A stretch of DNA of 64,000 nucleotides, taken from positions 127,172 through 191,171 of the forward strand of contig CANGEV010000002.1 of NCBI GenBank assembly GCA_947452995.1, read 5' to 3'. Position 1 is the first letter of the stretch; each line of letters starts with the position of its first letter. A program made the translations under genes and the position numbers. The notes beneath the pieces are model-generated. The model was not told the DNA's origin and searched no databases. It was given only the letters and a program-made list of their open reading frames with translations. Below are positions 9,659 to 64,000 of the stretch, in pieces. This DNA is from Chitinophagales bacterium (GTDB lineage Bacteria > Bacteroidota > Bacteroidia > Chitinophagales > CAIODY01).

Positions 9659-9678
9659 AGGTTTGTTTTTTGTCAATT

Positions 9679-14880: not shown

Positions 14881-14931
14881 CAGCTCCATCTTGGGCGTAT
14901 GAAGATTATTCTGTTACTTCGCTTACTGATT

Positions 14932-15918
14932 ATGCGTATAAAACTCTTTTATTGCGGTTGCTTATTTGCATTCCTTCTTGCGTCAAAAGTAACGAAGGGG
15001 CAAAATGATGCGCAACTAGGGCATTCAACGCTATGGCCCAATTTGAATAATCCAGCAGCGCTGGAATGTTATAAAGCTCCTCTTGCCGGAGCAGATTTAA
15101 GAATTCAATGGCTTGGTATTGAAGGGCAGCCATTCACACAAACTGTTTTCGCACAAATGCCTATTCCAAGCACTAAGCTTTTTGGAGGAATTGTCATCGC
15201 TAACGAACTAGCCGGTGCGCATCAAGTACTACATACCGATTTTCAATTCGCCCTGCCGATAATGGTAAAAAAGCAACTAGTGCAAATTGGAGCAAGTGTA
15301 GGTTTTATTCAATATTCATTGGAAGGCGCCAAACTTCGTGCTGCTGACGGAGTTTATACCGATAATGCCCTTTTGCATAATGACCCCAATTTAGCTAGCA
15401 ATACGTTAGGGCGCTTTGTTCCGAACCTTAATGTCGGTATCAAATCAACCTGGAACGCGTTTTCGCTTAACGTAGGCATTGAACATCTATACGCTTCAAA
15501 AATTAAACTAATCGCGCCCTCAGGGAATGCATTAATACAATATACACCACTTTTTCACCTCGGATTAAATTATAACTGGCCACTACAAATCAATGATTGG
15601 CAATTCAAATCCGCAATTTGGTATAAATCAAACGTATCTAAAGCAATGCTTGATTGGCAAACTTTTGCAACCTATCAAGAAAAATGGCGCTTCGGCATGA
15701 TAATTCGCGGGTTTTCTCCTCGAAATTTGGATGCAGCGGGTGCTCTTTTTGGATATATCCTTAATGAACGAATGCAACTGAATTATTCTTTTGAATGGCC
15801 TATAAATAGCTTGTCACAAGTTTCTTACGGTACACAGGAATTAAGCCTCGTCTATAAATTGCAAGAACCACCGCCGCCTACAAGAGGTAAAATAATCTTC
15901 TCGCCGCGTTTCTTGTAA
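14932..15918 (+). CDS. porP: PorP/SprF family type IX secretion outer-membrane protein
   Basis: A 328-residue protein with a signal peptide (about 1-24, ending VTKGQ), then QLGHSTLWPNLNNPAALE, the typical opening of the PorP/SprF family. Alternating hydrophobic strands suit an outer-membrane beta-barrel. Its place just before gldKLMN is the classic porP-porKLMN order. The family helps assemble the type IX secretion machinery or anchors cargo at the surface. The ATG at 14932 is chosen over an in-frame ATG at 14899 because it gives a compact signal peptide. Confidence 0.85.
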   Translation: MRIKLFYCGCLFAFLLASKVTKGQNDAQLGHSTLWPNLNNPAALECYKAPLAGADLRIQWLGIEGQPFTQTVFAQMPIPSTKLFGGIVIANELAGAHQVLHTDFQFALPIMVKKQLVQIGASVGFIQYSLEGAKLRAADGVYTDNALLHNDPNLASNTLGRFVPNLNVGIKSTWNAFSLNVGIEHLYASKIKLIAPSGNALIQYTPLFHLGLNYNWPLQINDWQFKSAIWYKSNVSKAMLDWQTFATYQEKWRFGMIIRGFSPRNLDAAGALFGYILNERMQLNYSFEWPINSLSQVSYGTQELSLVYKLQEPPPPTRGKIIFSPRFL

Positions 15919-15967
15919 TTTTTTTTAGCCAAAACGAAACTTTTTATTTATCTTGCGTATAGGAGTT

Positions 15968-15982
15968 TTAACACATTGTTAA
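15968..15982. repeat. inverted repeat upstream of the gldK promoter
   Basis: TTAACA-CAT-TGTTAA is a perfect 6-bp inverted repeat. About 20 bases on, two similar tracts (CTTTAAGCCT and CCTTAAGCCT) form a direct repeat before the gldK promoter. A regulator-binding role is only inferred. Confidence 0.35.
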
Positions 15983-16036
15983 GACTTTAAGCCTAGAAAC
16001 AGAAAAACGAACCTTAAGCCTTAATTTTCCAAAGTG

Positions 16037-16067
16037 TTTGGAGAATTGGGGAAAATATATATCTTTG
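16037..16067 (+). promoter_or_regulatory. promoter of gldKLMN
   Basis: TTTG at 16037-16040, a 19-base spacer, then TATCTTTG at 16060-16067: a full match to the Bacteroidota -33/-7 consensus. Transcription should start near 16073, giving a leader of about 50 bases before gldK. Confidence 0.8.
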
Positions 16068-16122
16068 TCTTCCTTGCCTTAAATCTAAATAGGGTAGGGA
16101 AATTATTAAATCCAATTAGCGC

Positions 16123-17409
16123 ATGAAAAAGATGCTTAAACATGCTTGGTGGTTAGCGTTGGCTGTAATCGTGATCAGTTGTGGTCATGGTGGTTATGAA
16201 GGCCAATTGCTCGGTGTATTCGATCGCCCTGAATACATCCCAGAAATCCCTTATGGAATGGTTTATATCCATTCTGGAACATTGCACATTGGTCAAAATG
16301 ATGAGGACATGAACGGTACCTTGGTACAACGTCCAAAATCAGTTTCCGTGCAAGGGTTCTATATGGATAATACCGAAGTTACAAACAACGAGTATCGTCA
16401 GTTTGTATACTGGGTGCGTGATTCTATCGCTCGTCGTTTGATGGGTGGTGAATTTTTGTACGCTGAAGGTGAAGAAAATGAACGTATCAATTGGGATCTT
16501 GAATTGGATTGGAATTCAGAAGATGCAAAAGAAAAATTGGAGGAGTTATTTTATCCTGCTGAAGAACGTTTCTGGGGAAAGAAACAAATCGATCCATCTA
16601 AATTGGTTTATAACCCAGTTGAATTGGATTTGCAATTCGCTGCTAAAAAAGCGAATCGTCAAGAGTCTCGTAGCAAAATCATTTTGAACCGCGCTGTGAA
16701 CATCTATCCTGACACTATGTGCTGGATGCATGATTTCACCTATTCGTTCAACGACCCTATGACGCGTAATTATTTCAATCACCCAGCTTTCGATAACTAT
16801 CCAGTGGTTGGTGTTAATTGGCATCAAGCTCGCGCTTTCTGTTTGTGGCGCACGCGCTTATTGTATGATTTTAATATGTTGAATGGTAAAACTGAGCCGG
16901 AATTCTTCCGCTTACCTTCAGAAGTAGAGTGGGAATACGCTGCACGCGGTGGTCGTGAATTCGCACCTTACCCATGGGGTGGTCCATACTTACGTAATGC
17001 GAAAGGTTGTATTCTTGCTAACTTTAAACCTATGCGTGGTAACTATCCAGAAGATGGAGGTTTGTACACTGTAAAAGCGGATGCATACTTCCCGAATGAT
17101 TTCGGATTATATAATATGTCTGGTAACGTAGCCGAATGGTGCGAAGATGCATTCTTCGAAAATGCATATCAATTTATGCACGATTTGAACTCTTCAGTAC
17201 GCTACAACTCAACTGGTCCAGACGATGCAAACCAAGACCCAGACGCGATGAAACGTAAAGTTATTCGTGGTGGATCATGGAAAGATATCGGATACTACCT
17301 ACAATGCGGTACACGTAAGTGGGAGTTCCAAGACACTGCTAAATGTTATATCGGTTTCCGTACGGTTCAATCTTTCTTGGGTCGTTCAATGGCTGATTAT
17401 CAAAAATAA
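16123..17409 (+). CDS. gldK: gliding motility/type IX secretion lipoprotein GldK
   Basis: A 428-residue lipoprotein with a lipobox at VISC (Cys20). The body is a formylglycine-generating-enzyme (SUMF1) fold: YMDNTEVTNNEYRQFV near residue 85, RLPSEVEWEYAARGG near 265, GLYNMSGNVAEWCED near 330 and RGGSWKDIGYY near 385. With GldN it forms the periplasmic ring of the type IX secretion system beneath the outer membrane. It is the first gene of gldKLMN. Length and motifs are normal; a sulfatase-modifying activity is not expected. Confidence 0.97.
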   Translation: MKKMLKHAWWLALAVIVISCGHGGYEGQLLGVFDRPEYIPEIPYGMVYIHSGTLHIGQNDEDMNGTLVQRPKSVSVQGFYMDNTEVTNNEYRQFVYWVRDSIARRLMGGEFLYAEGEENERINWDLELDWNSEDAKEKLEELFYPAEERFWGKKQIDPSKLVYNPVELDLQFAAKKANRQESRSKIILNRAVNIYPDTMCWMHDFTYSFNDPMTRNYFNHPAFDNYPVVGVNWHQARAFCLWRTRLLYDFNMLNGKTEPEFFRLPSEVEWEYAARGGREFAPYPWGGPYLRNAKGCILANFKPMRGNYPEDGGLYTVKADAYFPNDFGLYNMSGNVAEWCEDAFFENAYQFMHDLNSSVRYNSTGPDDANQDPDAMKRKVIRGGSWKDIGYYLQCGTRKWEFQDTAKCYIGFRTVQSFLGRSMADYQK

Positions 17410-17464
17410 AAACCAAATCACACTTAATAACTAACCATCCTAACCAATTAAAACACCCTAAATT

Positions 17465-18307
17465 ATGTCAGGCTTAGTTCATTTCTTCGAGACGGATCGC
17501 GGTAAGCGTTTGAAAAACATGATCATCGGTTTCGGTGCATCTGTTGTTATCTTAGGGGCCCTATTTAAAATCTTGCACTGGCCTTTGGCAACAGAAATGT
17601 TGATGGCCGGTATGATCACTGAGGCTGTTCTATTCGCACTTTTGGGTTTCTTGCCGCCTCACAAAGATTACTATTGGGAACGTTTGTATCCAAATTTGGA
17701 TATCGCTCCTGAAGTGGATAAAACCTTCGTTCGTAAGGCAAATGCAGACGTTGCTGTAGGTGGCGGTTCTGGTTCTGGCGATGGCGGATTAGGAAGCTTG
17801 TTGAGCAAAGTAAATGTTCCTGAAGAAGTATTCGAGAAAATGGGCGAAGGCTTCAAGAAAATTGCCGACAACGCAGACAAAATGAGTCAAATTTCTGATG
17901 CTGTAGCTGCAACTAACGAGTACGCTACATCAGCACGTTCAGCCGCTTCTACTTTACAAGGTATGAACTCAGCATTTGCTGAAGCATCTGAAAATATCAA
18001 AACAATTGGTAACATCGGTTCTGAGTCAAAAGCATTCCACGAGCAAATCCAAGGAATGACGAAAAACTTATCTGCTTTGAATGCGATGTATGAAATGGAA
18101 TTGAAAGATACAAGTAATCATATTCAAGCGATGAACCGTTTCAACGCAAACTTAGTTGAAGCAATGAGCAATATGAGTAACTCGATCGAAGATACTGTGA
18201 AGTATAAAGAGCAAATGGCTTCTTTAGCACGTAACCTTTCTGCATTGAATAATGTATACGGAAACATGTTGAGCGCTATGAGCACTGCAGCTTCTGGCAA
18301 TCGTTAA
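17465..18307 (+). CDS. gldL: gliding motility/type IX secretion motor protein GldL
   Basis: A 280-residue inner-membrane protein. Two membrane helices lie at about residues 19-38 and 44-64, with Glu53 in the second as the likely proton-path residue by analogy with other GldL proteins. A Gly/Ser-rich linker and a long helical cytoplasmic region follow. With GldM it forms the proton-driven motor that powers secretion and gliding. The gap to gldK is 55 bases and to gldM 57 bases, with no terminator. Confidence 0.97.
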   Translation: MSGLVHFFETDRGKRLKNMIIGFGASVVILGALFKILHWPLATEMLMAGMITEAVLFALLGFLPPHKDYYWERLYPNLDIAPEVDKTFVRKANADVAVGGGSGSGDGGLGSLLSKVNVPEEVFEKMGEGFKKIADNADKMSQISDAVAATNEYATSARSAASTLQGMNSAFAEASENIKTIGNIGSESKAFHEQIQGMTKNLSALNAMYEMELKDTSNHIQAMNRFNANLVEAMSNMSNSIEDTVKYKEQMASLARNLSALNNVYGNMLSAMSTAASGNR

Positions 18308-18364
18308 TCTCGGACTTAAGTATTGATAGTAATCACTTATTCAAAAATTAAAGAGTAAAGCACT

Positions 18365-19936
18365 ATGGCAATTCCTAAGGAGCCGAGGCAGATGATGATC
18401 AACATGATGTATCTCGTGTTGACAGCCCTGTTGGCACTAAACGTGTCTGCAGAGATATTGAACGCATTTAAAATCGTGGATAAAGGTATCACAAAAGCCA
18501 AAGACGCGATTAAAACAAAAAATGCAATCACCTATAGTCAGTTAAAAAAGCAAAGCGAATTAAATCCTGGTAAAGCTAAAGAAGCGTATGATAACGCCCA
18601 AAAAGCAAAAGCCCTTTCTACTGCTTTAGATGCTGAAATCGAAAAATACAAAAAGAGCCTGATCGAAGTTTCAGGTGGCGTATTCCCTGATGGTCCTCAC
18701 AAAGGCGAATTGATGAATGATAAGGACTTGGAAGCAGGTCCACGTATCTTCATCGAAGAAGGGGAAGGAAAAAATGGTAAGGATTTGATGAATAAAATCA
18801 ACATGACACGTAAAAAGTTGTACGCGTTGATTCCTGCATCCCGTCGCCAAAAAGCGAAAGAACTGGAAGCTCGTTCTGCATTACGTGCCGAAGATTTCAA
18901 AGATCCTGAACATTCACCAGAAGAAAATAAATGGTATTTCGGTAACTTCCACATGGTACCCGTTGTAGCATGTTTGGCTATCCTAAATGGTATTCAACAA
19001 AATATCAAAACTGCTGAAGCAGACGTAATTAACGAATGTTTAATGTCTATCGGCGCTGATGATTTCAAGTTTGATACCTTGGTAGCTCGTGTTGTTCCAG
19101 AAAATACTATTATTACAGAAGGTGGTCAATTTAAAGCCCATATCTTCTTGTCAGCATTCGACTCTAAAGCGGATCCAGACATCTTCGTGGGTGGTAATGC
19201 GGTGAAGGTCGATGGAGGCGAAGGTCTTTATACAGCTTCTGCTTCAGGTGAAGGTGAAAAGAAATATGCTGGTGATATCCGCGTGAAAGATCCTAATGGT
19301 CGTGTAAAGTCTTATAAATTTGATGGCTCTTACCAAGTAATTAAGCCGTTCGCTTCGGTTTCTCCGGAAAAGATGAACGTGTTTTACATGGGGGTGGAGA
19401 ATCCTATACGTATCACGGCTGCTGGTTTTACCGCAGATAAAATTGCGGTAACAATCTCTCAAGGTACAATCGCAGGTTCGGCTGGTAAATATGTCGTTAC
19501 ACAAAATAAATTAGGTTCCGCAATCGTTTCAGTAAGTGGTACTACCATTAGCGGTAAAGAAAAACGCACTGTTAAAATCGGTGATTTTCCATTCCGTGTT
19601 AAAATGATTCCTTCCCCTTATGCAACTATCGCAAACCTACAAGGTGGTGCCATCGCTGCGGATCTTTTGAAGATTCAAAAAGGGATCTCTGCCGTCCTTG
19701 ATAACTTTGACTTCGATTATAAATATGCGGTAACCAAGTTTACAGTGTATTATCGTCCTCGTCGTGGTGATCCAGCTCCTCCTGTTGTTGTGAATGGTAA
19801 CATGTTTAACGACCAAGTAAGAGCTTTGTTGAACCAAGCTAAGCCGGGTGATTCGTTCTTCTTTGAAGATATCACGGTGCAAGGTCCTGGTAATCCTCCG
19901 CGTAAAATCGGTGCAATTTCTTTCCGTCTGAATTAA
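18365..19936 (+). CDS. gldM: gliding motility/type IX secretion motor protein GldM
   Basis: A 523-residue protein with one N-terminal membrane helix (about residues 12-32, MMYLVLTALLALNVSAEI) and a long periplasmic part of four domains ending in a beta-rich tip (KPGDSFFFEDITVQGPG). It spans the periplasm as a dimer, linking the GldL motor to the GldK/GldN ring. Arg8 before the helix matches a conserved basic site in the family. gldN starts 15 bases later. Confidence 0.97.
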   Translation: MAIPKEPRQMMINMMYLVLTALLALNVSAEILNAFKIVDKGITKAKDAIKTKNAITYSQLKKQSELNPGKAKEAYDNAQKAKALSTALDAEIEKYKKSLIEVSGGVFPDGPHKGELMNDKDLEAGPRIFIEEGEGKNGKDLMNKINMTRKKLYALIPASRRQKAKELEARSALRAEDFKDPEHSPEENKWYFGNFHMVPVVACLAILNGIQQNIKTAEADVINECLMSIGADDFKFDTLVARVVPENTIITEGGQFKAHIFLSAFDSKADPDIFVGGNAVKVDGGEGLYTASASGEGEKKYAGDIRVKDPNGRVKSYKFDGSYQVIKPFASVSPEKMNVFYMGVENPIRITAAGFTADKIAVTISQGTIAGSAGKYVVTQNKLGSAIVSVSGTTISGKEKRTVKIGDFPFRVKMIPSPYATIANLQGGAIAADLLKIQKGISAVLDNFDFDYKYAVTKFTVYYRPRRGDPAPPVVVNGNMFNDQVRALLNQAKPGDSFFFEDITVQGPGNPPRKIGAISFRLN

Positions 19937-19951
19937 TAAATCTATAGAGCT

Positions 19952-20899
19952 ATGCAAAAAAGATTTTTAACATTATTGGCATTCTTCACTTTGAGCACAG
20001 CTAGCGTTTGGGCTCAAAATGATGGCGATCAAACAGGTGATCCTGCAAATGATGCAACAACTGCTTCAACTGGACCTGCAAGTGATGATCGTTTCCTTGG
20101 TGGAATGGGCGTTTACAAACGCGCTTTGCATGGTACTATTGATCAGAATGGTGCTGCTACAACTGGTGTACGTACTTTGGAATATGATTTTGTTCGTCAA
20201 TCAGATATCTACTGGCAAAAAAGAATTTGGCGCGTTATCGATTTTCGTGAGAAAATGAACTTGCCATTCATCTACCCGAAGCCAGGAGCCAAATTTTTCG
20301 AAATCATTCATCGTGCAGCGATGACTAGCGAGGAAGGTTTGAGAATGTATTCTACTGGTGAGAACGATGATCAATTCTTATCTAAAGGGATTTATATGGA
20401 TACTACGGCTTTCAAAACAGCCTTCAATGGTTCTGATACATCGTATATTCCCGATCCTAATACAGGTGAAATCGATACTGCTGTCATTGTTCGTAAAATT
20501 GATGCAGAAAAAGTAACAAAAATGCGTGTCATCGAAGACTGGTTCTTTGATGACGAATCTTCAACAATGCAAGTACGTATCTTAGGTATTTGTCCGTTGT
20601 ATCCAATGTACACTTCTTCAGGACAATTCGTTGGAGAAATTCCAATGTATTGGTTGTATTATCCTGACTTGCGTAAGGTATTGACTAAATACGAAGTATA
20701 TAACTCTCGTAACGATGCAAAACCAATGAGTTGGGATGATGTTATGGAGAATCGTTTCTTCAGCAGCTATATCTACAAAGAATCTAACGTATACGATCGT
20801 CGTATTTCTGACTATGCAAACGGTTTGGATGCATTGTTAGAAGGTGAACGTATTAAGCAAGATATCATGGATAAGGAACAATTCTTGTGGTCATATTAA
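19952..20899 (+). CDS. gldN: gliding motility/type IX secretion ring protein GldN
   Basis: A 315-residue periplasmic protein with a signal peptide (about 1-21, ending SVWAQ). Family blocks include QSDIYWQKRIWRVIDFREKM near residue 90, RVIEDWFFDDESSTM near 192 and MYWLYYPDLRKVL near 230. It partners GldK in the ring complex. It is the last gene of the operon and is followed by a terminator. Confidence 0.97.
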   Translation: MQKRFLTLLAFFTLSTASVWAQNDGDQTGDPANDATTASTGPASDDRFLGGMGVYKRALHGTIDQNGAATTGVRTLEYDFVRQSDIYWQKRIWRVIDFREKMNLPFIYPKPGAKFFEIIHRAAMTSEEGLRMYSTGENDDQFLSKGIYMDTTAFKTAFNGSDTSYIPDPNTGEIDTAVIVRKIDAEKVTKMRVIEDWFFDDESSTMQVRILGICPLYPMYTSSGQFVGEIPMYWLYYPDLRKVLTKYEVYNSRNDAKPMSWDDVMENRFFSSYIYKESNVYDRRISDYANGLDALLEGERIKQDIMDKEQFLWSY

Positions 20900-51234: not shown

Positions 51235-51876
51235 TTATATTATGTTTTGCTTCACAGCTTTAGCGACAGCCTCTTGCGCAGAATGCACATGAAGTTTTTC
51301 ATAGATTTTTTTAGTGTGTGCATTTACGGTATGCCACGAAATACTGAAGCGTTCGGCAATGGCTTTATAATTTAAGCCTTCGACCATTAAGCTTAAAATT
51401 TCAATTTCTCTCTCCGTAAGATTAAAGAGGGCTTTACCTCTCTCATTATTTGGTGTAATAGTTTGGAAAATATTTAAAACCTTCATTGCAATAGACGGCG
51501 TCATATAAGCCCCGCCTTGCGCCACCTCTCGGATTCCTTCTATTAATTTTTCAGGGGCGGTTTTCTTTAAGTAATAGCCACTGGCACCTGCTTGTAAGGC
51601 GGCAAAAATTTTATCGTCATCGTCAAACACTGTTTGCATGATAACGGGTAATGCAGGAACCGTTTTCTTAATTAGTTTTAAAGCTTCGATACCATTTATT
51701 TTAGGCATGTCAATATCCATTAAAACTACGGTCGGTTTTAAATTTATTACTTGTTGCGTGATTTTAGTGCAGTCTTCAAATGCACCAATGCAATGCATGT
51801 CAGGTGATTGATTGATCAGAAGCTCAATGCCTTCCAGACGCGCTATATTATCGTCATATGCTAGTATAAAAATCAT
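51235..51876 (-). CDS. LuxR/NarL-family response regulator
   Basis: A 213-residue regulator. The receiver domain (about 1-120) has the acidic pair Asp8-Asp9 and the phospho-acceptor Asp54 in VVLMDIDMP. The C-terminal LuxR-type helix-turn-helix (about 145-205) reads LTEREIEILSLMVEGLNYKA. It is 43 bases downstream of the sensor kinase in one operon and should be its partner. The operon is divergent from the giant adhesin gene, a possible target. Confidence 0.94.
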   Translation of the reverse strand: MIFILAYDDNIARLEGIELLINQSPDMHCIGAFEDCTKITQQVINLKPTVVLMDIDMPKINGIEALKLIKKTVPALPVIMQTVFDDDDKIFAALQAGASGYYLKKTAPEKLIEGIREVAQGGAYMTPSIAMKVLNIFQTITPNNERGKALFNLTEREIEILSLMVEGLNYKAIAERFSISWHTVNAHTKKIYEKLHVHSAQEAVAKAVKQNII

Positions 51877-51919: not shown

Positions 51920-54900
51920 TTAGTGATTTGAACATGGACAAATCAAAGTGATTGAAGTGCCTTCACTTATTTTACTGCGGATATTTACTTTACCATTCAA
52001 TTGCTCTGCCCGTTTACGCATATTTTTCAGTCCATTGCCTTGTTTTATGGTTGATTCATCAAACCCTATTCCATTATCTCTTATTTCTAAGTAAAGCATC
52101 TTCTGTTTATAATTTGCCTGTATTTCAAGTTTCGAGGCATTCGCATATTTCAAGGCATTATTGATTGCTTCCTTGTAGAATAAATAGATGTTTTTACGTT
52201 GTATCATTCCCATTTTTTGTCTACTTAAGGCAGGATCAACATGGAAACTAATGTTAACAGGAATATCTTCACTGAGCGAACTTGCATAATCTTTCATTTT
52301 AATAGAAAGATTGTCAAATTCATCGTTTTTAACATTGATCATCCACACGATGTCACTCATTGCATCTTGAGATGATTGAGTAAAGTTGCTGATTTTAGAT
52401 AGTAGCCTTTTTGCCTCCGTATTTTCGCTGTCTAGTTTTTGATTTATTATAGCTAAAAATAATGTGATGTTGCTAAGGTTCGCACCAACTTCATCATGTA
52501 AATCTTTTGCAATGCTATTTCTCATTTCCTCCATTTCTTTGTATTGGCCAAGCTTGGATCGAATGATTAATGTTATTATTAACGCAACTAGAATAATTAT
52601 GATAAGATAAAACCACCACGTTTTGAACCATGGCGTTTTGATATTAATTAGAAGTGGTGTGGCAAGGTAAGTCCAATTACCATAGCAGTCAGCAACTTTT
52701 ACCCTGAAAACATATTCACCTGGAGGGATTTTTAAAAAGTTAGCCTCGCGTTGCGTTCCGCATGTAATCCATTCAGAACTTAAACCTTCCAATTGGTAGG
52801 CATATTGATATTCATTATTTCTTAAATAGCCGAGCGCCGCGAATTCTATTTTTAAATTATTGTCAAAATAATTAAGGTCTAATTTATTTAGATTGCTAGG
52901 AATCTCTTTTCCATTATTCCAAATGGAGGTAATATAGATTGGATTGTTGAATGACGGGAATAAAGTCGTGTTTGGGTTGAAATAGTTGATTCCGCTTACT
53001 CCTCCAAAAACTAAAAAATTATTACTTGTTTTTAAAGATGCATTTGTATTGAATTCTGCACTTTGTAAACCATCAATACTTGAGTAACGTTGAAATTTAT
53101 TTGTTACACAATTATAGATATTCAATCCATTGTTAGTTCCCATCCAAATTTCGTTTTTCTTACCATATTGTATGGAATAGATATAATTGTCTCCCAGTCC
53201 GTCACTCGCGTTCGTTATTTTCAACGAATCAGTAAGATAATTATAATGAATTAACCCCATTCCATTAGAACCTAACCACAGCCAACCATTACCTTCATTC
53301 AGTATGCATCGGATGTTGGTGATTTTAATACTGTTATTTTTAGGTTTAAGCTTCTTGCTTAATTTTTTTTGTAAGTAGTTATATTCTATTAACCCGTTTT
53401 CACAGGCGATAAGCAAACGTAAAGGATCTGGCTGACTAAAATTAAATGTAATTCCAAAGTTTGGAATATCCCCATTGTTTGGTTTGAATCCTAAAATGGC
53501 TTCTGCCGGGTTTGCAATACCTTTTTTTAATTTATGCCAATCACACTTGTAAATTTTATTATCAGGAGTCCCTAACCATAAATTATTTTGATTATCAAAA
53601 AACATCGATCGAATCGTGCCTTCAATGATGCTTGCATCCTTTTGAGCGAAAATCACTTGCCCTTTTTTGGTTGTAGAGGATATACAGATAAGTTTTAACT
53701 CATGCCATCCAGAGATCCACAAATCACCTTCTGGATCTTTTAAAATAGCGCTTATGGGTAAATTACTCAGTTCTTTTTTAATCTCAGTTGGGAAGTTTGG
53801 TTCTACGAATTTTCTTTTTAAATTATCAAAGGCTAGTAATCCGTCAAGCGAGCCTATTAGCATATTATTAGCTTGCCATTCGCAAATGGTGCGAATATTT
53901 AATTTGTAAGGGGATTTATCGCTTATGCTTTTAAAATCTTGATATGGATTGTAGGGCGTAAACATCGAAGCACGATATTCCATTTTAATTAAGCCATTGC
54001 CAGGAGATGTTAGCCAAGTTACTTCCCCATCTGTATAAATGCTCTCCAAATTATTCGTGATGGATAGTCCGCTACCTGCCAAAGGTAGGTCGACTGTGAT
54101 GATTTTGTTTAGGCGGTGATCATATTCTAGCATTTTCTCATCTTCGCAAATCACCCAGAGGTTGCCGTGCATTCCTTTTGCAATCAGCTTAATTCCTTTG
54201 TAGTGGGAATTGTCCGTTATCAAATTTATGGGATGCGGCAATCCTCTTTTAAATAGTATAATCGAGTTTTTGTTTCGTAAATAATAAATACTGTCTCCTG
54301 AAGCTATTATTTGAGAAGCTGCACGAATTTGTGCTTGAATGTCTTCAGCTTGTTGAGATTCCGAAAATTGATTGTTTTTTAGGTTATAATCATAGATCTC
54401 CTCATTGAGAACAATGCATTTTGATAAGTTTTTATATGTGCTTGGGAATATTTTAGGAATTTTATCCAAAGGAGATTCACTTTTAACAGGGTAAATTGTT
54501 TTTTTATTCGTGCGATAATTATAAAAAACAACTTGTTTCTTTTGTTGAATTACAAGCTGTTCATTGATGGTTTCTTTTCCGATTTTGGAAGGTGGCCATT
54601 GACTTATATCTATCGTGTTTATGAGGGTTCCAAGGCTGTTAAATACAATTATTTTTTTTGCATTTGTATTGTGAATGATAAAGTTGTTTTCATCTTCAAT
54701 GAAATAGCAACTTGAGCCAACAGGATCTAATTTTTGAGTGATGGCGAATTTGGTTTTACCTGGTAAAATGCTAGCAATATAATCTTGAGTGATAAAAAGA
54801 ATTGTATTCGTTTCTTTTGATTGGGCATATGCCTTTAATCGAATAGGCGAGGGGGGCGGAGAGGTAATCTCGGAGCTAATATTCTTAAAACTATAGCCAT

Positions 54901-55102
54901 CAAATCTTCCGATCCCGTTTTCACTAAAAAGCCAGATGAATCCTTGCTTGTCCTTCAAGACACCCGAGATCGTGGATGAAACGAGCCGTTGCTCTTGGTT
55001 ATAATACGAAAAAATATAATTTTTATTTTGTGCAAAAACAGTGTTTAAGTACAAAAATTGACACCAAATGAGTAAATTTAGGACAAGCAGTTTACGGGGC
55101 AT
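51920..55102 (-). CDS. propeller-type sensor histidine kinase (Y_Y_Y domain)
   Basis: A 1060-residue sensor kinase. A signal or anchor (about 1-24) is followed by a large periplasmic part with two-component propeller repeats (for example GFIWLFSENGIGRFDGYSF and GWLWLGSNGMGLIHYNY), a Y_Y_Y domain (about 740-820, PPGEYVFRVKVAD), a membrane helix (about 825-848), then a HisKA_3 domain with phospho-acceptor His869 (AKDLHDEVGANLSNI) and an ATPase domain (DNGIGFD, GNGLKNM). It lacks the fused receiver and AraC domains of hybrid SusR-like sensors. The ligand is unknown, perhaps a glycan. Confidence 0.93.
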   Translation of the reverse strand: MPRKLLVLNLLIWCQFLYLNTVFAQNKNYIFSYYNQEQRLVSSTISGVLKDKQGFIWLFSENGIGRFDGYSFKNISSEITSPPPSPIRLKAYAQSKETNTILFITQDYIASILPGKTKFAITQKLDPVGSSCYFIEDENNFIIHNTNAKKIIVFNSLGTLINTIDISQWPPSKIGKETINEQLVIQQKKQVVFYNYRTNKKTIYPVKSESPLDKIPKIFPSTYKNLSKCIVLNEEIYDYNLKNNQFSESQQAEDIQAQIRAASQIIASGDSIYYLRNKNSIILFKRGLPHPINLITDNSHYKGIKLIAKGMHGNLWVICEDEKMLEYDHRLNKIITVDLPLAGSGLSITNNLESIYTDGEVTWLTSPGNGLIKMEYRASMFTPYNPYQDFKSISDKSPYKLNIRTICEWQANNMLIGSLDGLLAFDNLKRKFVEPNFPTEIKKELSNLPISAILKDPEGDLWISGWHELKLICISSTTKKGQVIFAQKDASIIEGTIRSMFFDNQNNLWLGTPDNKIYKCDWHKLKKGIANPAEAILGFKPNNGDIPNFGITFNFSQPDPLRLLIACENGLIEYNYLQKKLSKKLKPKNNSIKITNIRCILNEGNGWLWLGSNGMGLIHYNYLTDSLKITNASDGLGDNYIYSIQYGKKNEIWMGTNNGLNIYNCVTNKFQRYSSIDGLQSAEFNTNASLKTSNNFLVFGGVSGINYFNPNTTLFPSFNNPIYITSIWNNGKEIPSNLNKLDLNYFDNNLKIEFAALGYLRNNEYQYAYQLEGLSSEWITCGTQREANFLKIPPGEYVFRVKVADCYGNWTYLATPLLINIKTPWFKTWWFYLIIIILVALIITLIIRSKLGQYKEMEEMRNSIAKDLHDEVGANLSNITLFLAIINQKLDSENTEAKRLLSKISNFTQSSQDAMSDIVWMINVKNDEFDNLSIKMKDYASSLSEDIPVNISFHVDPALSRQKMGMIQRKNIYLFYKEAINNALKYANASKLEIQANYKQKMLYLEIRDNGIGFDESTIKQGNGLKNMRKRAEQLNGKVNIRSKISEGTSITLICPCSNH

Positions 55103-55222: not shown

Positions 55223-55240
55223 ATACCTAGAAATAGGTAT
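55223..55240. promoter_or_regulatory. perfect inverted repeat between sensor kinase and adhesin genes
   Basis: ATACCTA-GAAA-TAGGTAT is a perfect 7-4-7 inverted repeat. It lies just upstream of a TTTG at 55253-55256 that is spaced 20 bases from a weak TAAATGAG, before the adhesin start at 55336. This is the layout of an activator site. NarL-family regulators bind paired heptamers, so the neighbouring response regulator is a candidate; this is inference. Confidence 0.45.
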
Positions 55241-55335
55241 AGTGAATTCGCATTTGGTTCTATATTTTGCGCATCCTAAATGAGCACAAAGTTCATTTTT
55301 AGTTCATGAAAATTTTACAAACACCAATAAACAAC

Positions 55336-58300
55336 ATGAAACAAACAAACCACAAATTCTCCTGGAGATTGCGTCGTTTGGGTATTTTGGCGATTGCGCT
55401 CATTGCAGCGTTTTCGTTGAGTACGCAAGTGCGAGCGCAGGTCACAGGAACGAAAACGGTTGCTGCTAGTGGTGGGGATTACACCTCAATCGCTGCTGCG
55501 ATCACTGACTTAAACACCAATGGTGTCGGCATCGGCGGTGCTGTGATTAATGTACCTGCGGGTTGGACGGAAACTGCTCCTTCCGGCGGTTATAAGTTAG
55601 GTTCAACTACCTTGAATGCCTCGCTTAGCGCAACCAAGACCTTGACTTTCCAAAAGTCGGGTGCTGGTACCAATCCATTGTTAACTGCTTTCGTTGGGAC
55701 AATTGCAGGTGCCGGTGTAAGCACAGCCGCAACTGGTTACTCAGGTATCGGTGAAGGAATTTTTTCTTTGTCTGGAACGGACTACGTTACAATAGACGGC
55801 ATCGATTTGATAGATCCTTCAACCAACGCAACTGCGACGACGCAAATGGAATGGGGCTATGGGTTCTTCAAATTGAACTCTGCTGCTCCTTTTGATGGTT
55901 GTCAGTACAATACCATTAAGAATTGTACCATTACCATGATGGGAGGTGTGCAATCTGCGGGTATCGTATTTCAAAACTTTCAGGTTGGGGGTAGTACTGC
56001 TTTCACACCAACTGCTGTAACGGATGCGAATAGCTATAATAGATGTTATTCTAATACGATTCAAAAAATTGGTTCCGGTATTTATATTAAAGGCTATTTC
56101 AATAGTTCTGTGCTTACATATTGGGACACTAATAATGATTTCGGTGGTAGTTCTGTTGCTACGGGTAACACTATTAAATCATTCGGACCTGCTGCCACAA
56201 CAAATATTTGTAACGGTATTTACTCATTGAATCAATTGAATCTAAATGCATCTTACAATACGCTAAACAACTATAATGCTGGTGCGACTATCAATGGTAG
56301 TGCTACTGTAGCTCCCACAGCAGGATCATGCTATCAAATTTACAATGCAAATCAAACTGCCACCTCAGGTCTTCTTGAAAACGCAACTATCAAGGGTAAT
56401 ACGATTACCATGACTGGTGGTGCTGGTTCAACTGCCATGTACGGTATTTACAATTACTACAAAGGTGGTAATATGGATATCAGTAATAATGCATTTACTT
56501 GGGCTACAACTGGTACTACTACGGGTACATGGTATGCTATGTATGCTTACTACGCAACTGTGGGTGCTACAGGGTACTTCAAGAACAATTCACTGACAGG
56601 TACATTTGCAAATAGCACAGGTTCTTGTTATGGTTTTTATATGTACGCCCAATGTCAAACAAACACTGAATTTAGTGGTAATACCTTAAACAACATCACA
56701 CGTAATGCAGTAACCACAGGTACAACGTATTTATTTGCGCCTTATTACTCTACAAACTATAATACAGTAGGAACTACAACCAATATCTTTAACAATGTAA
56801 TTAACAATATTACCCTCGCTTCTACAGCAACTTCTGCTACCCTATATGCGACCTATTATATGGGGGGGAATTATAATTGTAATATTTACAATAATACCAT
56901 TTCTAACATCACCAATGCTGGTACTGCTGCGTCGGGTACTTTCTATGGTTTCTATGACTACTACTATGGAACCAATTGGAATGTATATGGTAACAACCTG
57001 AACACTGTTAACTGGGGCACTTCTACAGGAACTATCTATGGGACTTATCTATATGCATATTACGGTAATATCGTAAATTACTATAATAATAGCACCACAG
57101 GCTTAACTTCTAGTGGATCTATTTATGGCTTCTACGATTACTATCAATACAATGCAGCTACAAGTAACTATTACAACAATACCATCGCTGATTTAACAAG
57201 TAATGGAGCTACATCCATAATTTATTCGTGGTATAAATATGTTGAAACAGGAGATATCTTTATTCATCATAATACCATCAAGAATATTAAAAATGGAGCT
57301 GCAACCGCGGGAGCCTCTACTATCTATGGATTCTATGACTATGGTTATTGCCCAGTCAATGTGGGCAATATGGTTTTATATGACAATATCATCTCTGTTG
57401 GTAACAGTTCTGCAGGTGCAAATGCTTCTTCTAACTCTTCAGGTGGTTGTTATGCTTATTATAGTGCGGGTACTTCAACTGCACACCCTGTTAAATTGTA
57501 TTATAATACCTTGTCTGTTTTCGGAACTTCTGCGCAAGCAGCTTTCGGGGCGCATGGTATTTTTAATGCAAGTACAACCTATCCTGCCAAATTGGATGTA
57601 CGTAATAACCTAATTATGAACTATGCAGCTAATACGAATGCTACGCCATCAAGTAAAATGACTTGTATGCGTATTGGTGGTGCTGTGGGTACTTATTTGA
57701 ATACGGAGTATGATGCCAATTCAAACAACAATAACTATTTCCTAGCGAATGGTAGTGGTTCTTCAACCGTATATTATTATTTCTATGATGGTACAACAGG
57801 CTATAATACATTTGCTGGTATGAAGGGTGCAATTGGCGCTCGTGAATCTGCTTCATTTTCTGAAAACACTTCATTCTTAAGCAAGACTTCTTCCAATGCA
57901 AACTTCTTTAAGCCAGATCCTGCGGTTGCAACGCAAATTGAAAGTGCTGCACAACAAATCGGTACTGCATTAGTTGCTGGTGGTATCACTACCGATTATG
58001 CTGGTACGGTACGTCAAGGTAATGTGGGTTATTTAGGTAGTTCTCCTGCGGGTCCGGATATGGGTGCATATGAGGGTAACTATACAGCTCTTGACTTGGC
58101 TGCTCCAATTATTACGCATACGGCAGCTGGCTTCACTTGTAATACAGGTGACAGAACAATTACTGCGACTATCGCAGACTATACTGGGGTGGATACAACC
58201 TTAGCACCAACCATCTATTTCAAAAAGAATTCAGGTACTTGGTACAGCGCTGCTGGTACACGTACTGCGGGTTCGTATAAGTCAGGTACTTGGTCGTTTG

Positions 58301-61300
58301 TAATTGGAGCTGCTGCTATGGGTGGCTTAGTGCCTAATGATGTTGTTTCTTACTATATCGTTGCACAAGACTTAGCGACTCCATCTGCAAATATGGGTTC
58401 TTTGCCTGTCGGTGCTGTAATGACAAATGTTAATACAGTTACCACTCCTCCAACAACACCGTATTCTTATTCAATAGGTAATCAATTGTCTGGTACCTAT
58501 CCAGTAGGTGCTGGTCAGGCTGCCAATGGTGGTTTCAATACCCTTACAGCAGCCGCTGCCGCATACAATGTAAATTGCTTAAGTGGAAATATCGTTTTCT
58601 TATTGACAGATACCTTGTACAATGCAACAACAGAAACATTCCCTGTAACTTTTGGTGTGAATCCATTTGCAAGTTCATCGAATACCTTGACTATTAAGCC
58701 TGCTTCTTCTAATACGGTATATTTCCGTTCTTCAACGGCAACAGGTTTTATTAAGTTGAATGGTGCAGACTATATCACAATCGATGGTTCAAATAATGGA
58801 TCTACTTCTCGCGATTTGAATTTTGTTAATACCTCTACTGCTGCGAATGCTGCAATTTGGTTAGCTTCATTAGGTGGTGCGAATAGTGGTGCTACTTATA
58901 ATACCGTGAAGAATTGTAATATTTGGGCGAATGCTGCACAATCTTCTTCTACGAATATTTATGGTATCGTTTCTTCAACTACAGGTGCACAAACCTCAGC
59001 TGGTGAAAACAATGATAACAATACGTTCCAAAATAACAACATTCGTAAAGTATGGATTGGTATTTCATGTCTAAATAGTGCAACAAATAAATCCTCTAAC
59101 GTTGTAATTAAGAATAACGTGATTGGTGCACAATCAGCTCCATATACACAAAGTACTTCTGTTGCGCCTTATTATGCCGTAACTGATTTTGGTGTGGAAG
59201 TTGATAATGCGTTGAACTTTAATATCCAAGGGAATGACATTGATGGAGTATTCTCTACAGGTACGAACTATTATCCAACGGGTATTCGTGTTGGTGTAAA
59301 TGCTACTGGTAATATCGATGGTAATAAAATACACGGTATGTATATCAATACAGGTGGTTGGGGTGCTTATGGTATCCACATAAATGGCGCTTCAGCTGGT
59401 GTTACGATTAAAAATAACATGATTTATGATATCATGACTGAAAACTATTCGTCATCATCTACAACGTATAATGCTTTTGGTATCCGCTTGTCTGTGGCTA
59501 CAACGAATACTAAAATCTATAATAATTCTATTTATTTAGCAGGTACAGTTTCTTTGAATACTTCTTCAGCAATGTCGGCGTGTTTATTGTCTGTAACAGC
59601 TCAAACCGGCTTAGAAGTAAAGAATAACATCTTTGTAAACGAGATGAAGTCTACTGTAGCAGGTTCTCAATTCTACTCAGTATGGTGGGCTGTAGCTCCA
59701 ACCTTTACTTCATGGGATTATAATGATTATTATGGAACAACATCTGCAAGTACTCCTTATGGTGCATACAATGTTGGTTATGTAAATGGTGTTTCAACAT
59801 CAACTATGACTGCATTTAAAGCTGCTATGGGTGCTGGTGTAGATGCGAATTCTTTGAATTTGCCTGTACCATTTGTTTCTGCAACCGACTTGCATTTGAA
59901 TTTTGGTACGACTCCTACATTATTTGAATCAGGTGGACAAACATTAGCTGCTGTAACAACTGACTTTGATGGTCAAAGCCGTCCTGGTCCTGCTGGTTCT
60001 GTGAATGGCGGTGCTACTGCAAGTGATATTGGAGCGGATGAGTTTGATGGTTTCCCATTACCACACTGTTCTACTATTACACCTGGAACAACAGTTTCTT
60101 CTGCTAATCCAATCTGTTCTGGATGGCCTTTCACGCTTTCATTGAGCGGTGCAAGTAATCCTACGTTGATTGGTGGTTTGAACTTCCAATGGATGAAATC
60201 TACCAATGGTGGTACTACATGGAGCGTAATTCCAGGTGCTACTAACCCTACATACAATAACCCTGGTATTACAGTTGCGACCATGTACCATTGCGTAATC
60301 GGTTGTAACTATAACCCTGGTGTTTATGATTCTTCAGCTAACGTCAGCGTTACCTTAAATACGTATGTAAACTGTTATTGTCAGTCTACACACTATACGG
60401 ATTATAACTATCCTGCTTCTAACTATACCGTGTATGGTAAGATTTTACAAGTTCAATTGGGTACGATTAACTATACAAACCCTGCTACACAATTCGTTGC
60501 TCCTTACTATACTGCAGTACCGAATACAGTTAACACCAATATCATTGCTGGTCAAACCTATACTTTAAGTGTTCGTTGTGATTATGGTTATTTTGGTATT
60601 TTAGCATGGATTGACTGGAATGCAAATGGTGTATTTGACGCTTCTGAATATTATAATTTAGGATCTACGAGTACCGGTACTACAGGTTCATCTCAGACTT
60701 TATCAATGCAAATTGTTGCTCCGGTAACGATTCCTACGGCAGCAGCAAAGATTCGTCTTCGTACTAACTATTATAGTTATATTGGTTATGCAGGACCTGG
60801 TGATGCATGTACGAATGGTACGAGTAGTTCTACAGCACCATTCTATTATGGTGAAACGATGGATTATTTCTTGAATTTGATTGGTTTGCCGGCAACACCT
60901 GCTAACCCAACTTTAAGTGCAGTTCCTGTTAGTTGTATTGCAGGTACTACAATTGTACCTACAGGTACTCCTGCTACTGGTGTTGATTGGTACTGGCAAA
61001 ATTCTGCTACAGATACTTTCCATACTTCTGCAAATCTTGTTAGCGGTCCTTTAAGTATTTATGCAAATGGAACATATTATATCCGTGCATATAATTCAGC
61101 TTTCAATATTTGGTCAACAGGTGCTGGTTCTATCACAGTAAACAGTTTCCCTGCAGGTCCTAATGCACCAACAACTCCAGTTGCTGCAGCTAATCCTGCA
61201 TGTTCGTCTGGTACTACAGTAACAGTTGCTTCTGCTCCAGCAGGTGAAACCTACTATTGGCAAACAAGTACTGGTACATTCAGTCAAAGTAATAATGCAA

Positions 61301-64000
61301 GTAATCCATTAACGGTTACAACAAACTCTACTGTTGTAGTTCGTTCATTGGATAATACTTCAGGTTGTTGGTCGAATCCATCAAGTTTAAACGTTACAAT
61401 TTTACCTACAATTACAGGTGCTTCATTCAATGTGACGAGTTCTGCAACGTGTGCTAACGTTGGTGATGGAACGATTTTGGTTGTTCCTGGTTCAAACCCT
61501 CCATTATTACCTTGGTATTATAATGACTTCAATGCTGCATTTACAAACAATGCGTCTGCTCAAGTCTTTGGTACAGGTACAGTAAGTAGTGGTAAGTTGA
61601 TTATGACACAGAATGCTGCAAGCCAAGCGGGTGGCGGTATTCAAGTGTTTAATCCGTCTGCGCTTAATGCAAATGCATTTGACATTAATTTCGATATCGT
61701 TACATTATATGGTAACGGTTATGCTGATGGTATTTCGTATAGCTTCGGTGACGACGTTGTGCAAATTCCTAGCCCAGCTACCAACGGTACTAATCCTGAA
61801 AATGGTTCTGGTACGAAGTTGAAATTAGCTTTTGATGAATATGCAAATGGTAGTAATGCCCCTGGTATTTATTTGATGTACAATTGTAATGTGTTGAACC
61901 AAACGTCTACAACTCCTGGTGTTTTAGCTTATAATGCATCAACTTCATGGACTAACTCAAGTTCTACTACGTATAAAACAACGCATATTCAGATTACTAT
62001 TAACACAGCTGGTCAAGTAACAGTTAAGGTAAATGGGACTCCTGTTTTTACGAACATTCAATTACCGAATGGTTATTTAGCAACCAATAAATCTAACTGG
62101 TCGCATGTATTTGTTTCTCGTACGGGAGCTGTATATGATGAACACTCGATTGATAATTTCGATGTGAAATATTATGATGTAAACTATTATGCATATAGCG
62201 TTAATTCGGGTTCTACTTGGCAAACTGCTAATAACTTCAACTTGAATGCTGGTACATATCCTGTTTGGATCACGTATAATTCAAACCAAGCATGTTCAGT
62301 TAATTTGGGTAATGGTACTATAACAGCGCCTATCTTCAATTTAACTTCAACAAGTGATAGTATGTGTACGTATTATTCAATGGTTCCTACTTTGAATTTA
62401 TCGCCAACTTTCGCTGCTGACTCATTCAAATGGGAGAGTTCTCCTCTAGGTACTAATACCTGGTCAGTAATTACTGGTGCACGTTCTGGCTCATATACTC
62501 CTGCAACTTATACAAGTTCGTTGGATTATAGATTGAGTTTGAATTGTGGTACAGGTGTTGCGTCAACAACTAAATATCAAACTGGTGTTAAGTCAACTTA
62601 TGCAGTTACACCAACTATTACATCGACTTCTCAAACAGTTACGCCTTGTGGTATTGGTACAGCTACCTTGAATGCAACTGCCTCTAGTGGTGCAACACCT
62701 CAATGGTTGCAAACTAGTTCAATGTCGGTTCCATTAGCTCTTGGAGGGACGTATACTACTCCAACATTATCAAGTACTACGAATTATTATGTTTCGGCAT
62801 CACAAGGTGGTACAATGTTTAACTTAGGTTTGGCTAACTATGTGGTTAACTCAACAAACTCCGGTTTCTCTGATATCGGTTTGATGTTTGATGCTACAGT
62901 TCCATTCTTATTACAGTCTGTTGCCGTATATCCAATAAACACTACTGCTGGTCCTGCTACCATTACTGTAGCAGTGAAGAATGCAGCTGGTACTGTATTG
63001 CAAAGCACTACACTCAACATTACATCTTGTCTTTCTTCAAGCCCTGTTAAAACGGTGCTTCCATTAAACTTTAACGTTCCTGCAGGAACCGGAAATAGAT
63101 TAGTGGTAACTGCAGTTACAGGTTTGACTGGTTTAATTCGTGAGGTGACCACTGGTTATACTTACCCTTATACTATACCAGGTATTGCAAGTATCACATC
63201 AGCTTATACTAGTGGTGCTTCTACAAGCTACTACTACTATTTCTATGATTGGAAATTGTCTACTGGTTGTGCGTCTACGCCGCAAGCTGTTCCTGCTGTT
63301 GTTATTACGGCTCCGTCTATTACGGCTTCTGTGACACCTGCTACAGATACGGTATGTGCTGGAGGAAGTTCAAGCTTGAACGTAACTTCATCGAATTCTA
63401 ATTATACGTATACTTGGACTCCAGGTTCTTTGAGTGGTGCAGCGCAAACTGTAACACCAACTCCGACGACTACAGTTCAAACTAAAAATTACTATCGTGT
63501 TAATGCAATTGATGCTGGAACAGGTTGTAAAAACAAGGATTCAGTATTGGTGGTAGTAAACCCTAACCCTTCTGCTGTTACTGTTACACCAGTATCACCG
63601 CATATGCTCGTTGGTTCACCTGCACAGTTAACTGCGACAGGAGGTACGAATGGATCTACAGGTTTGGCTATTATTGGAACTGGTACGACTCAAAATTCAA
63701 GCTCAGTATATCCTTCTCCTTATGGGTTGTATTATGGTTCTTCTCATGAACAATATATTATCACTGCTGCAGAATTGACGGCTGCTGGTATTCCTGCTGG
63801 TCAGATTACTTCTTTGGCCTTTAACTTAGCGTCAGTAGCTAATACTACATACAATTATCAGTATTTCAATATCCAAATGGGTAATACAAGTACTGCTAAT
63901 TTCTCTACTGCAGCTTTGGTAACCACTGGTCTAACACAAGTATATACAAATACTGCCGGGTTTATGTTAACAGGTTCAGGTTGGAAGACTTACACATTTA
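55336..64000 (+). CDS. giant secreted adhesin-like protein, probable type IX cargo (3' end beyond window)
   Basis: One frame stays open for at least 2888 codons, from the ATG at 55336 to the window edge. Residues 1-35 are a signal peptide (cleavage after VRAQ). A first beta-helix-like part covers about 110-350; about twelve tyrosine-rich repeats of 30-38 residues (about 354-760) follow, then an Ig-like region (about 924-1035), a second beta-helix part (about 1136-1435), an Ig-like domain, a GEVED domain (about 1690-1850, WIDWNANGVFD and FYYGETMDYF), two Ig-like repeats, a ConA-like lectin domain (about 2056-2285) and further beta domains. Type IX C-terminal signals would lie outside the window. 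It probably acts in surface adhesion or glycan binding. Confidence 0.92.
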   Translation, partial: MKQTNHKFSWRLRRLGILAIALIAAFSLSTQVRAQVTGTKTVAASGGDYTSIAAAITDLNTNGVGIGGAVINVPAGWTETAPSGGYKLGSTTLNASLSATKTLTFQKSGAGTNPLLTAFVGTIAGAGVSTAATGYSGIGEGIFSLSGTDYVTIDGIDLIDPSTNATATTQMEWGYGFFKLNSAAPFDGCQYNTIKNCTITMMGGVQSAGIVFQNFQVGGSTAFTPTAVTDANSYNRCYSNTIQKIGSGIYIKGYFNSSVLTYWDTNNDFGGSSVATGNTIKSFGPAATTNICNGIYSLNQLNLNASYNTLNNYNAGATINGSATVAPTAGSCYQIYNANQTATSGLLENATIKGNTITMTGGAGSTAMYGIYNYYKGGNMDISNNAFTWATTGTTTGTWYAMYAYYATVGATGYFKNNSLTGTFANSTGSCYGFYMYAQCQTNTEFSGNTLNNITRNAVTTGTTYLFAPYYSTNYNTVGTTTNIFNNVINNITLASTATSATLYATYYMGGNYNCNIYNNTISNITNAGTAASGTFYGFYDYYYGTNWNVYGNNLNTVNWGTSTGTIYGTYLYAYYGNIVNYYNNSTTGLTSSGSIYGFYDYYQYNAATSNYYNNTIADLTSNGATSIIYSWYKYVETGDIFIHHNTIKNIKNGAATAGASTIYGFYDYGYCPVNVGNMVLYDNIISVGNSSAGANASSNSSGGCYAYYSAGTSTAHPVKLYYNTLSVFGTSAQAAFGAHGIFNASTTYPAKLDVRNNLIMNYAANTNATPSSKMTCMRIGGAVGTYLNTEYDANSNNNNYFLANGSGSSTVYYYFYDGTTGYNTFAGMKGAIGARESASFSENTSFLSKTSSNANFFKPDPAVATQIESAAQQIGTALVAGGITTDYAGTVRQGNVGYLGSSPAGPDMGAYEGNYTALDLAAPIITHTAAGFTCNTGDRTITATIADYTGVDTTLAPTIYFKKNSGTWYSAAGTRTAGSYKSGTWSFVIGAAAMGGLVPNDVVSYYIVAQDLATPSANMGSLPVGAVMTNVNTVTTPPTTPYSYSIGNQLSGTYPVGAGQAANGGFNTLTAAAAAYNVNCLSGNIVFLLTDTLYNATTETFPVTFGVNPFASSSNTLTIKPASSNTVYFRSSTATGFIKLNGADYITIDGSNNGSTSRDLNFVNTSTAANAAIWLASLGGANSGATYNTVKNCNIWANAAQSSSTNIYGIVSSTTGAQTSAGENNDNNTFQNNNIRKVWIGISCLNSATNKSSNVVIKNNVIGAQSAPYTQSTSVAPYYAVTDFGVEVDNALNFNIQGNDIDGVFSTGTNYYPTGIRVGVNATGNIDGNKIHGMYINTGGWGAYGIHINGASAGVTIKNNMIYDIMTENYSSSSTTYNAFGIRLSVATTNTKIYNNSIYLAGTVSLNTSSAMSACLLSVTAQTGLEVKNNIFVNEMKSTVAGSQFYSVWWAVAPTFTSWDYNDYYGTTSASTPYGAYNVGYVNGVSTSTMTAFKAAMGAGVDANSLNLPVPFVSATDLHLNFGTTPTLFESGGQTLAAVTTDFDGQSRPGPAGSVNGGATASDIGADEFDGFPLPHCSTITPGTTVSSANPICSGWPFTLSLSGASNPTLIGGLNFQWMKSTNGGTTWSVIPGATNPTYNNPGITVATMYHCVIGCNYNPGVYDSSANVSVTLNTYVNCYCQSTHYTDYNYPASNYTVYGKILQVQLGTINYTNPATQFVAPYYTAVPNTVNTNIIAGQTYTLSVRCDYGYFGILAWIDWNANGVFDASEYYNLGSTSTGTTGSSQTLSMQIVAPVTIPTAAAKIRLRTNYYSYIGYAGPGDACTNGTSSSTAPFYYGETMDYFLNLIGLPATPANPTLSAVPVSCIAGTTIVPTGTPATGVDWYWQNSATDTFHTSANLVSGPLSIYANGTYYIRAYNSAFNIWSTGAGSITVNSFPAGPNAPTTPVAAANPACSSGTTVTVASAPAGETYYWQTSTGTFSQSNNASNPLTVTTNSTVVVRSLDNTSGCWSNPSSLNVTILPTITGASFNVTSSATCANVGDGTILVVPGSNPPLLPWYYNDFNAAFTNNASAQVFGTGTVSSGKLIMTQNAASQAGGGIQVFNPSALNANAFDINFDIVTLYGNGYADGISYSFGDDVVQIPSPATNGTNPENGSGTKLKLAFDEYANGSNAPGIYLMYNCNVLNQTSTTPGVLAYNASTSWTNSSSTTYKTTHIQITINTAGQVTVKVNGTPVFTNIQLPNGYLATNKSNWSHVFVSRTGAVYDEHSIDNFDVKYYDVNYYAYSVNSGSTWQTANNFNLNAGTYPVWITYNSNQACSVNLGNGTITAPIFNLTSTSDSMCTYYSMVPTLNLSPTFAADSFKWESSPLGTNTWSVITGARSGSYTPATYTSSLDYRLSLNCGTGVASTTKYQTGVKSTYAVTPTITSTSQTVTPCGIGTATLNATASSGATPQWLQTSSMSVPLALGGTYTTPTLSSTTNYYVSASQGGTMFNLGLANYVVNSTNSGFSDIGLMFDATVPFLLQSVAVYPINTTAGPATITVAVKNAAGTVLQSTTLNITSCLSSSPVKTVLPLNFNVPAGTGNRLVVTAVTGLTGLIREVTTGYTYPYTIPGIASITSAYTSGASTSYYYYFYDWKLSTGCASTPQAVPAVVITAPSITASVTPATDTVCAGGSSSLNVTSSNSNYTYTWTPGSLSGAAQTVTPTPTTTVQTKNYYRVNAIDAGTGCKNKDSVLVVVNPNPSAVTVTPVSPHMLVGSPAQLTATGGTNGSTGLAIIGTGTTQNSSSVYPSPYGLYYGSSHEQYIITAAELTAAGIPAGQITSLAFNLASVANTTYNYQYFNIQMGNTSTANFSTAALVTTGLTQVYTNTAGFMLTGSGWKTYTF

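Follow-up and report, generated by a model that had tools for sequence, protein, structure and literature searches.

A giant, probably adhesive surface protein with an L-type lectin-like fold beside a sensor-regulator pair in a Chitinophagales genome

Extent and integrity of the giant gene

What is encoded by a frame that stays open to the very edge of the DNA under study, and is it one gene at all? This question is raised by a stretch of 64,000 nucleotides from a Chitinophagales bacterium, referred to here as the window (bases 127172-191171 of contig C2 of genome G000, which comprises 2.54 Mb in 36 contigs). The part of the giant surface protein gene that lies in the window occupies positions 55306-64000 of the plus strand, and its assignment draws on the open frame, its continuation and a complete gene in another genus. 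An earlier note had claimed a frame from 55336 to 64000, at least 2888 residues long, that leaves the window, and this is borne out: a single frame without any stop codon runs from ATG 55306, or from a second ATG at 55336, to position 64000 and on to the contig end. Since near-identity with the sister species (G002; MAG22, Chitinophagales) sets in abruptly at ATG 55306, this codon may be the true start rather than 55336. A check for an early stop just past 64000, before any C-terminal domain, showed instead that the frame continues for 2,264 bases (755 codons) and is still open at the end of the contig (G000:C2:193435), giving 3,643 aa on this contig when counted from 55336. The final residues read FELIPNPT, a sequence with which type IX type A sorting domains usually begin, and the contig thus ends inside the start of that domain.

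A run of 2,888 stop-free codons is far beyond chance expectation, and an error joining separate genes was checked against a member of another genus of the same family (G005). This genome has the homologous regions in equal order in one frame of 4,664 aa, uninterrupted on a single contig and colinear with giant residues 49-3643 at 34-43% identity, with a GEVED domain and a C-terminal Por_Secre_tail (43.1 bits, cut-off 27). Because the match is colinear and the second gene is independent and complete, neither chance nor joined genes accounts for the frame, and the giant is confirmed as a real single gene. An assembly artefact, whether a fusion of separate genes or a misjoining of the 3' module among paralogues, could draw on the breakage of contigs of both G000 and the sister species within that shared module. 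It is nevertheless scarcely credible, as the G005 gene is complete and uninterrupted, and the modules of C2 and of contig C32 of G000 differ by about 5-20% of bases, which marks them as distinct copies and not as collapsed sequence. A tandem-repeat search of the giant gene found none, the repeats being diverged. A phage protein was also considered and set aside, since a PHROGs search gave no match and no sign of phage origin.

The 3' end of the gene can be sought in other contigs. The break in C2 falls within a 3' module of which the genome has near-repeats, and the C2 end resembles two other G000 contig ends, C1 and C32. The C2 end and the C1 tail share 257 of 263 bases (6 mismatches), while C32 fits C1 slightly better, with 1 mismatch in 129. 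The C1 tail encodes 160 residues, is open at its 5' side, and contains a type A sorting domain (TIGR04183, 48.6 bits, cut-off 23) followed by a stop; it would add 73 residues to the giant beyond the end of C2. After it comes a convergent kinase gene that we take to be BadF-like, for which Pfam gave no match at 0.001. In the sister species, the orthologue is divided between two contigs. Its N-terminus on C69 adjoins the equivalent divergent kinase, regulator and trigger-factor-like gene, and the remainder on C48 covers 3,131 residues with 59% identity over about 3,100 columns and ends in KRLVVTK and a stop. The last 99 bases of that C48 are identical to the first 99 bases of contig C32 of the same genome, an exact overlap beyond which lies a gene with 68% identity to the BadF-like one beside the C1 tail. 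The neighbours of the orthologue therefore match on both sides, with kinase and regulator on the left and the BadF-like kinase on the right. Given this synteny, the C1 tail most likely belongs to the window giant, through a join that has no exact overlap of its own. With its 73 residues added, the full protein would most likely comprise about 3,716 aa from 55336, or 3,726 from 55306. A further sorting domain at a contig end (C20) was tried as the end of the giant and rejected, as it belongs to another protein.

Predicted export and surface anchoring

The giant begins with a putative Sec signal peptide at 55336-55440 on the plus strand (MKQTNHKFSWRLRRLGILAIALIAAFSLSTQVRA-Q), recognised by sequence inspection from its n-region, hydrophobic stretch and VRA-Q site; a start at ATG 55306 would add a possible 10-residue N-terminal extension. 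Type IX machinery about 35 kb upstream had been reported in the earlier note, and it is genuine: genes for a PorP/SprF family protein, GldK, GldL, GldM and GldN lie at 14899-20896 of the plus strand, 34 kb away, all above their NCBIfam cut-offs. Elsewhere in the genome, PorU is encoded on C11 (1211 bits) and SprA on C5 (2508 bits). The corresponding C-terminal signal, a type A sorting domain, closes the C1 tail, the sister-species orthologue (C48) and the complete G005 gene.

The sorting domain and the core genes support the assignment of the giant as a predicted type A cargo of the type IX secretion system (T9SS), with C2 linked to C1 as proposed above. It would leave the cytoplasm by its Sec signal, and the type A sorting domain would then direct it through the type IX translocon. 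In the known pathway, the PorU sortase links cargo to surface polysaccharide (PMC10202324), so PorU probably cuts off the sorting domain of the giant and joins the protein to the cell surface in this manner. The protein resembles other type IX type A cargo (Por_Secre_tail, TIGR04183/PF18962) in its putative signal peptide, its type A C-terminal domain, as seen in the proposed tail and in relatives, and the accompanying T9SS core genes. It differs in that it is very large and in that the sorting domain ends a module of ~500-600 residues common to several giants, and it adds a new giant to such cargo. Over the whole 2.54 Mb of G000, 116 loci pass the cut-off for the type A sorting domain, a very dense set of type IX cargo. 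For an uncultured Chitinophagales lineage with a small genome (2.5 Mb), this is a heavy investment in surface proteins of the type IX route, some of them giants of around 4,000-5,000 residues.

Beta-helix parts and the question of an enzyme

Two beta-helix parts had been claimed for the giant. The first, residues 36-930 (55441-58125, plus strand), stands on an AlphaFold2 model and on Foldseek matches, with usable model confidence only at residues ~350-760. In that range, where local pLDDT is ~65-88, the model has three strands per coil of ~31-34 residues. Of the 50 top-ranking structural matches in the PDB, almost all are parallel beta-helices, with weak scores (best E 0.018). The second part, residues ~1085-1600 (58588-60135, plus strand), is proposed because relatives have beta-helix-like parts of similar sequence. 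Pfam and NCBIfam gave no beta-helix family match in the giant.

Within the first part, coils rich in tyrosine extend over 56422-57495 of the plus strand, as seen in a motif listing, in composition and in the strands of the model. A strand motif such as IYGFYDYY recurs at residues 368, 399, 431, 464, 503, 536, 567, 596, 629 and 663, mostly 29-34 residues apart, and tyrosine reaches 13.3% of these coils. The motifs are present also in G005 and G003 and are hardly found in the G000 paralogue on C32. The Tyr-rich strands could form an aromatic binding face.

A beta-helix may also be catalytic, and the giant could then be an enzyme that processes polysaccharides, either secreted or bound to the surface, as a lyase or epimerase whose substrate is held by the lectin, Ig-like and GEVED domains. 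Among the best structural matches of the first beta-helix there are indeed lyases (RbmB and PL6 enzymes, for instance), and the gene adjoins a Reg_prop/Y_Y_Y sensor kinase, a type linked to glycan sensing in Bacteroidota. These matches are weak, however (the best E value being that given above), and reflect the common coil; the giant matches no enzyme family profile, and two beta-helices together with a lectin fold suit binding better. An enzymatic role is therefore considered unlikely.

Lectin-like, GEVED and Ig-like domains

The ConA-like lectin domain that had been proposed is upheld at the level of fold. Its core, residues ~2055-2290 (61498-62205, plus strand), was modelled as an L-type (ConA-like) lectin, and Foldseek relates the model to YwfG, Emp46/47, VIP36 and legume lectins with a probability of 1.00. 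There are 211 matches at E <= 0.001, and the best-ranked are L-type lectins. The mean pLDDT of the lectin model is 59, with most of the core at 60-90; the structure models of the giant were built from 2-5 sequences and have mean pLDDT values of 49-59. Because no curated profile matches (Pfam found no lectin family in the giant, and a profile search of solved structures returned nothing for the lectin part), the domain is filed as lectin-like by fold and assigned to no named lectin family. Across five relatives, A2130-D-G (2130-2132), F2166-D (2166-2167) and N2171 are invariant, and these ADG, FD and N residues presumably correspond to the sugar- and metal-binding site of legume lectins.

The GEVED domain and the Ig-like repeats were recovered by Pfam. 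GEVED lies at residues 1757-1847 (60604-60876, plus strand; PF20009, 40.2 bits, cut-off 24.4). Ig_7, an Ig-like family associated with CHU_C, was given in two stretches, one of them placed at residues 2426-2490 (62611-62805, plus strand; PF19081, 35.9 bits).

YwfG of Lactococcus lactis (PDB 7YL4-7YL6) ranks first among the structural matches to the lectin part; this surface lectin binds mannose and causes yeast to aggregate (PMC9815576). The identity between the two is about 14%, and YwfG differs in having a Gram-positive LPxTG anchor and a different set of companion domains.

From its size, lectin fold and export signal, the giant is probably a glycan-binding cell-surface adhesin; its gene is most likely controlled by a sensor-regulator pair of its own. 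The two beta-helices, Ig-like modules and GEVED domain would form a long stalk outside the cell, displaying the L-type lectin and the Tyr-rich face, and these two parts, to judge from their folds, would attach to glycans carried by particles, cells or surfaces. By contrast, the giant might have a structural role, in an S-layer-like coat or a biofilm scaffold built with other giants and not sticky to any target. Several giants per genome with a common C-terminal module would suit such a role, as would the S-layer proteins of Tannerella, which are exported by the T9SS (PMC10202324). The conserved lectin fold, with its invariant ADG, FD and N residues, suggests ligand binding instead and makes a purely structural role improbable.

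A special case of the adhesin reading would replace the fixed anchor by movement, with the giant carried by the GldLM motor as a gliding-motility adhesin like RemA or SprB. GldK-N and SprA are present in G000, although a T9SS without gliding is common. The giant is comparable to RemA and SprB of Flavobacterium johnsoniae, which are giant or lectin-bearing T9SS adhesins; it has a type A sorting domain in common with RemA, a mobile lectin (PMC10202324). SprB, however, has a type B sorting domain whereas that of the giant is type A, and the lectin of the giant has an L-type fold. A gliding function is considered rather unlikely.

A shared C-terminal module evolving in concert

Several giants in each genome carry a common C-terminal module, composed of a galactose-binding-like domain (PF23759; weak in the copy of the giant, clear in relatives) and fn3, then the sorting domain. 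In a profile search of this module against solved structures, fn3 domains were the only matches. Along the protein, relationships change abruptly. Upstream of residue ~3030, the giant is far nearer to its orthologue than to its own paralogue on C32 (at 2680-2739, for example, 77% against 24%), whereas from ~3100 onward the order is reversed (at 3220-3279, 97% to the paralogue and 83% to the orthologue). A tree of the 319-residue module groups the C2 and C32 copies of G000 together with support of 100/100 when built without distant outgroups, and of 61-74 with them. Pairing the C2 module with its orthologue was rejected (delta logL 79, p-AU 3e-5), and the copies of the sister species likewise group among themselves.

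Phylogeny shows the last ~500 residues to be evolving in concert among the giant paralogues of each genome, and gene conversion, or a similar recombination within the genome, is the simplest reading of their uniformity. These residues would then act as a shared export cassette (galactose-binding-like, fn3, sorting) that is kept alike by recombination while the heads diverge. A homogenised module of this kind explains the breakage of such genes in metagenome assemblies, and it offers a testable case in which recombination holds an export end uniform as binding heads diverge. A known parallel is provided by the gingipains and HagA of Porphyromonas gingivalis, T9SS surface paralogues with identical or nearly identical adhesin modules that recombine and break short-read assemblies (PMC5266723). 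Their domains are unrelated, being cleaved adhesin domains, while the giant shares a C-terminal export module and has beta-helix and lectin heads.

Further giants were observed in both genomes. A second complete one of 3,966 aa lies on the minus strand of G000 (L055:2915-14815; G000:C1:450914-462814); besides a type A sorting domain, it has seven PKD_6 stretches and a repeated module of ~100 residues. Another giant (L054:2-6856, minus strand), a paralogue at least 2,285 aa long, has two GEVED domains, fn3 and an N-terminal half that resembles beta-helix 1; its 3' end is cut within the C-terminal module shared with the window giant. In the sister species, frames of 5,327+ and 3,097 aa stand in tandem on G002:C147 (L086/L087), with the tail of a third giant further along.

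A neighbouring regulator pair and a palindrome

On the minus strand, divergent from the giant gene, lie a sensor histidine kinase with Reg_prop, Y_Y_Y, HisKA_3 and HATPase_c domains (51920-55102; Pfam) and a NarL/FixJ-type response regulator with a receiver and a LuxR/GerE HTH domain (51235-51876; Pfam and NCBIfam). An equivalent kinase, 50% identical, adjoins the orthologue in the sister species. Between kinase and giant, 66 bp before ATG 55306, is a perfect palindrome, TACCTAGAAATAGGTA (TACCTA-N4-TAGGTA; 55224-55239), with one copy in the whole of G000. Its position is conserved: the single copy in the sister species (L134:1737-1752) precedes the orthologue by 65 bp. G001 has two copies (L140:4159-4174 and L095:1042-1057), 34 bp ahead of the regulator gene and 138 bp ahead of a gene with a secreted-looking N-terminus. 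Base composition predicts about 0.27 occurrences per genome, and the reversed pattern, used as a control, was counted 0, 3 and 0 times in the three genomes. A search for the classic Bacteroidetes promoter motif ahead of the giant gene was negative.

Because all four sites lie at the regulator-pair promoter, a regulator gene or a secreted-protein gene, this distribution strongly suggests that the palindrome is a candidate operator of the neighbouring regulator. The kinase and the NarL-type regulator would switch the giant gene, probably through TACCTA-N4-TAGGTA in the shared promoter region, as its uniqueness and position indicate. A regulator with one operator beside a giant adhesin would make a clear and testable switch.

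Taken together, these features allow a broader proposal, put forward tentatively and with somewhat less than even confidence. A set of giants in this lineage may be divergent, separately regulated heads, here a lectin and a Tyr-laddered beta-helix that bind glycans, on a common C-terminal export-and-display cassette. Gene conversion would keep this cassette uniform within each genome and any new head thereby suited to type IX export, and the head described here would be switched by a dedicated pair at one genomic operator.

Elsewhere in the window, an RCC1-like repeat protein of 746 aa is encoded at 7436-9676 on the minus strand and was recognised by eye ('ALAADGSVWAWGANDLGQLG').
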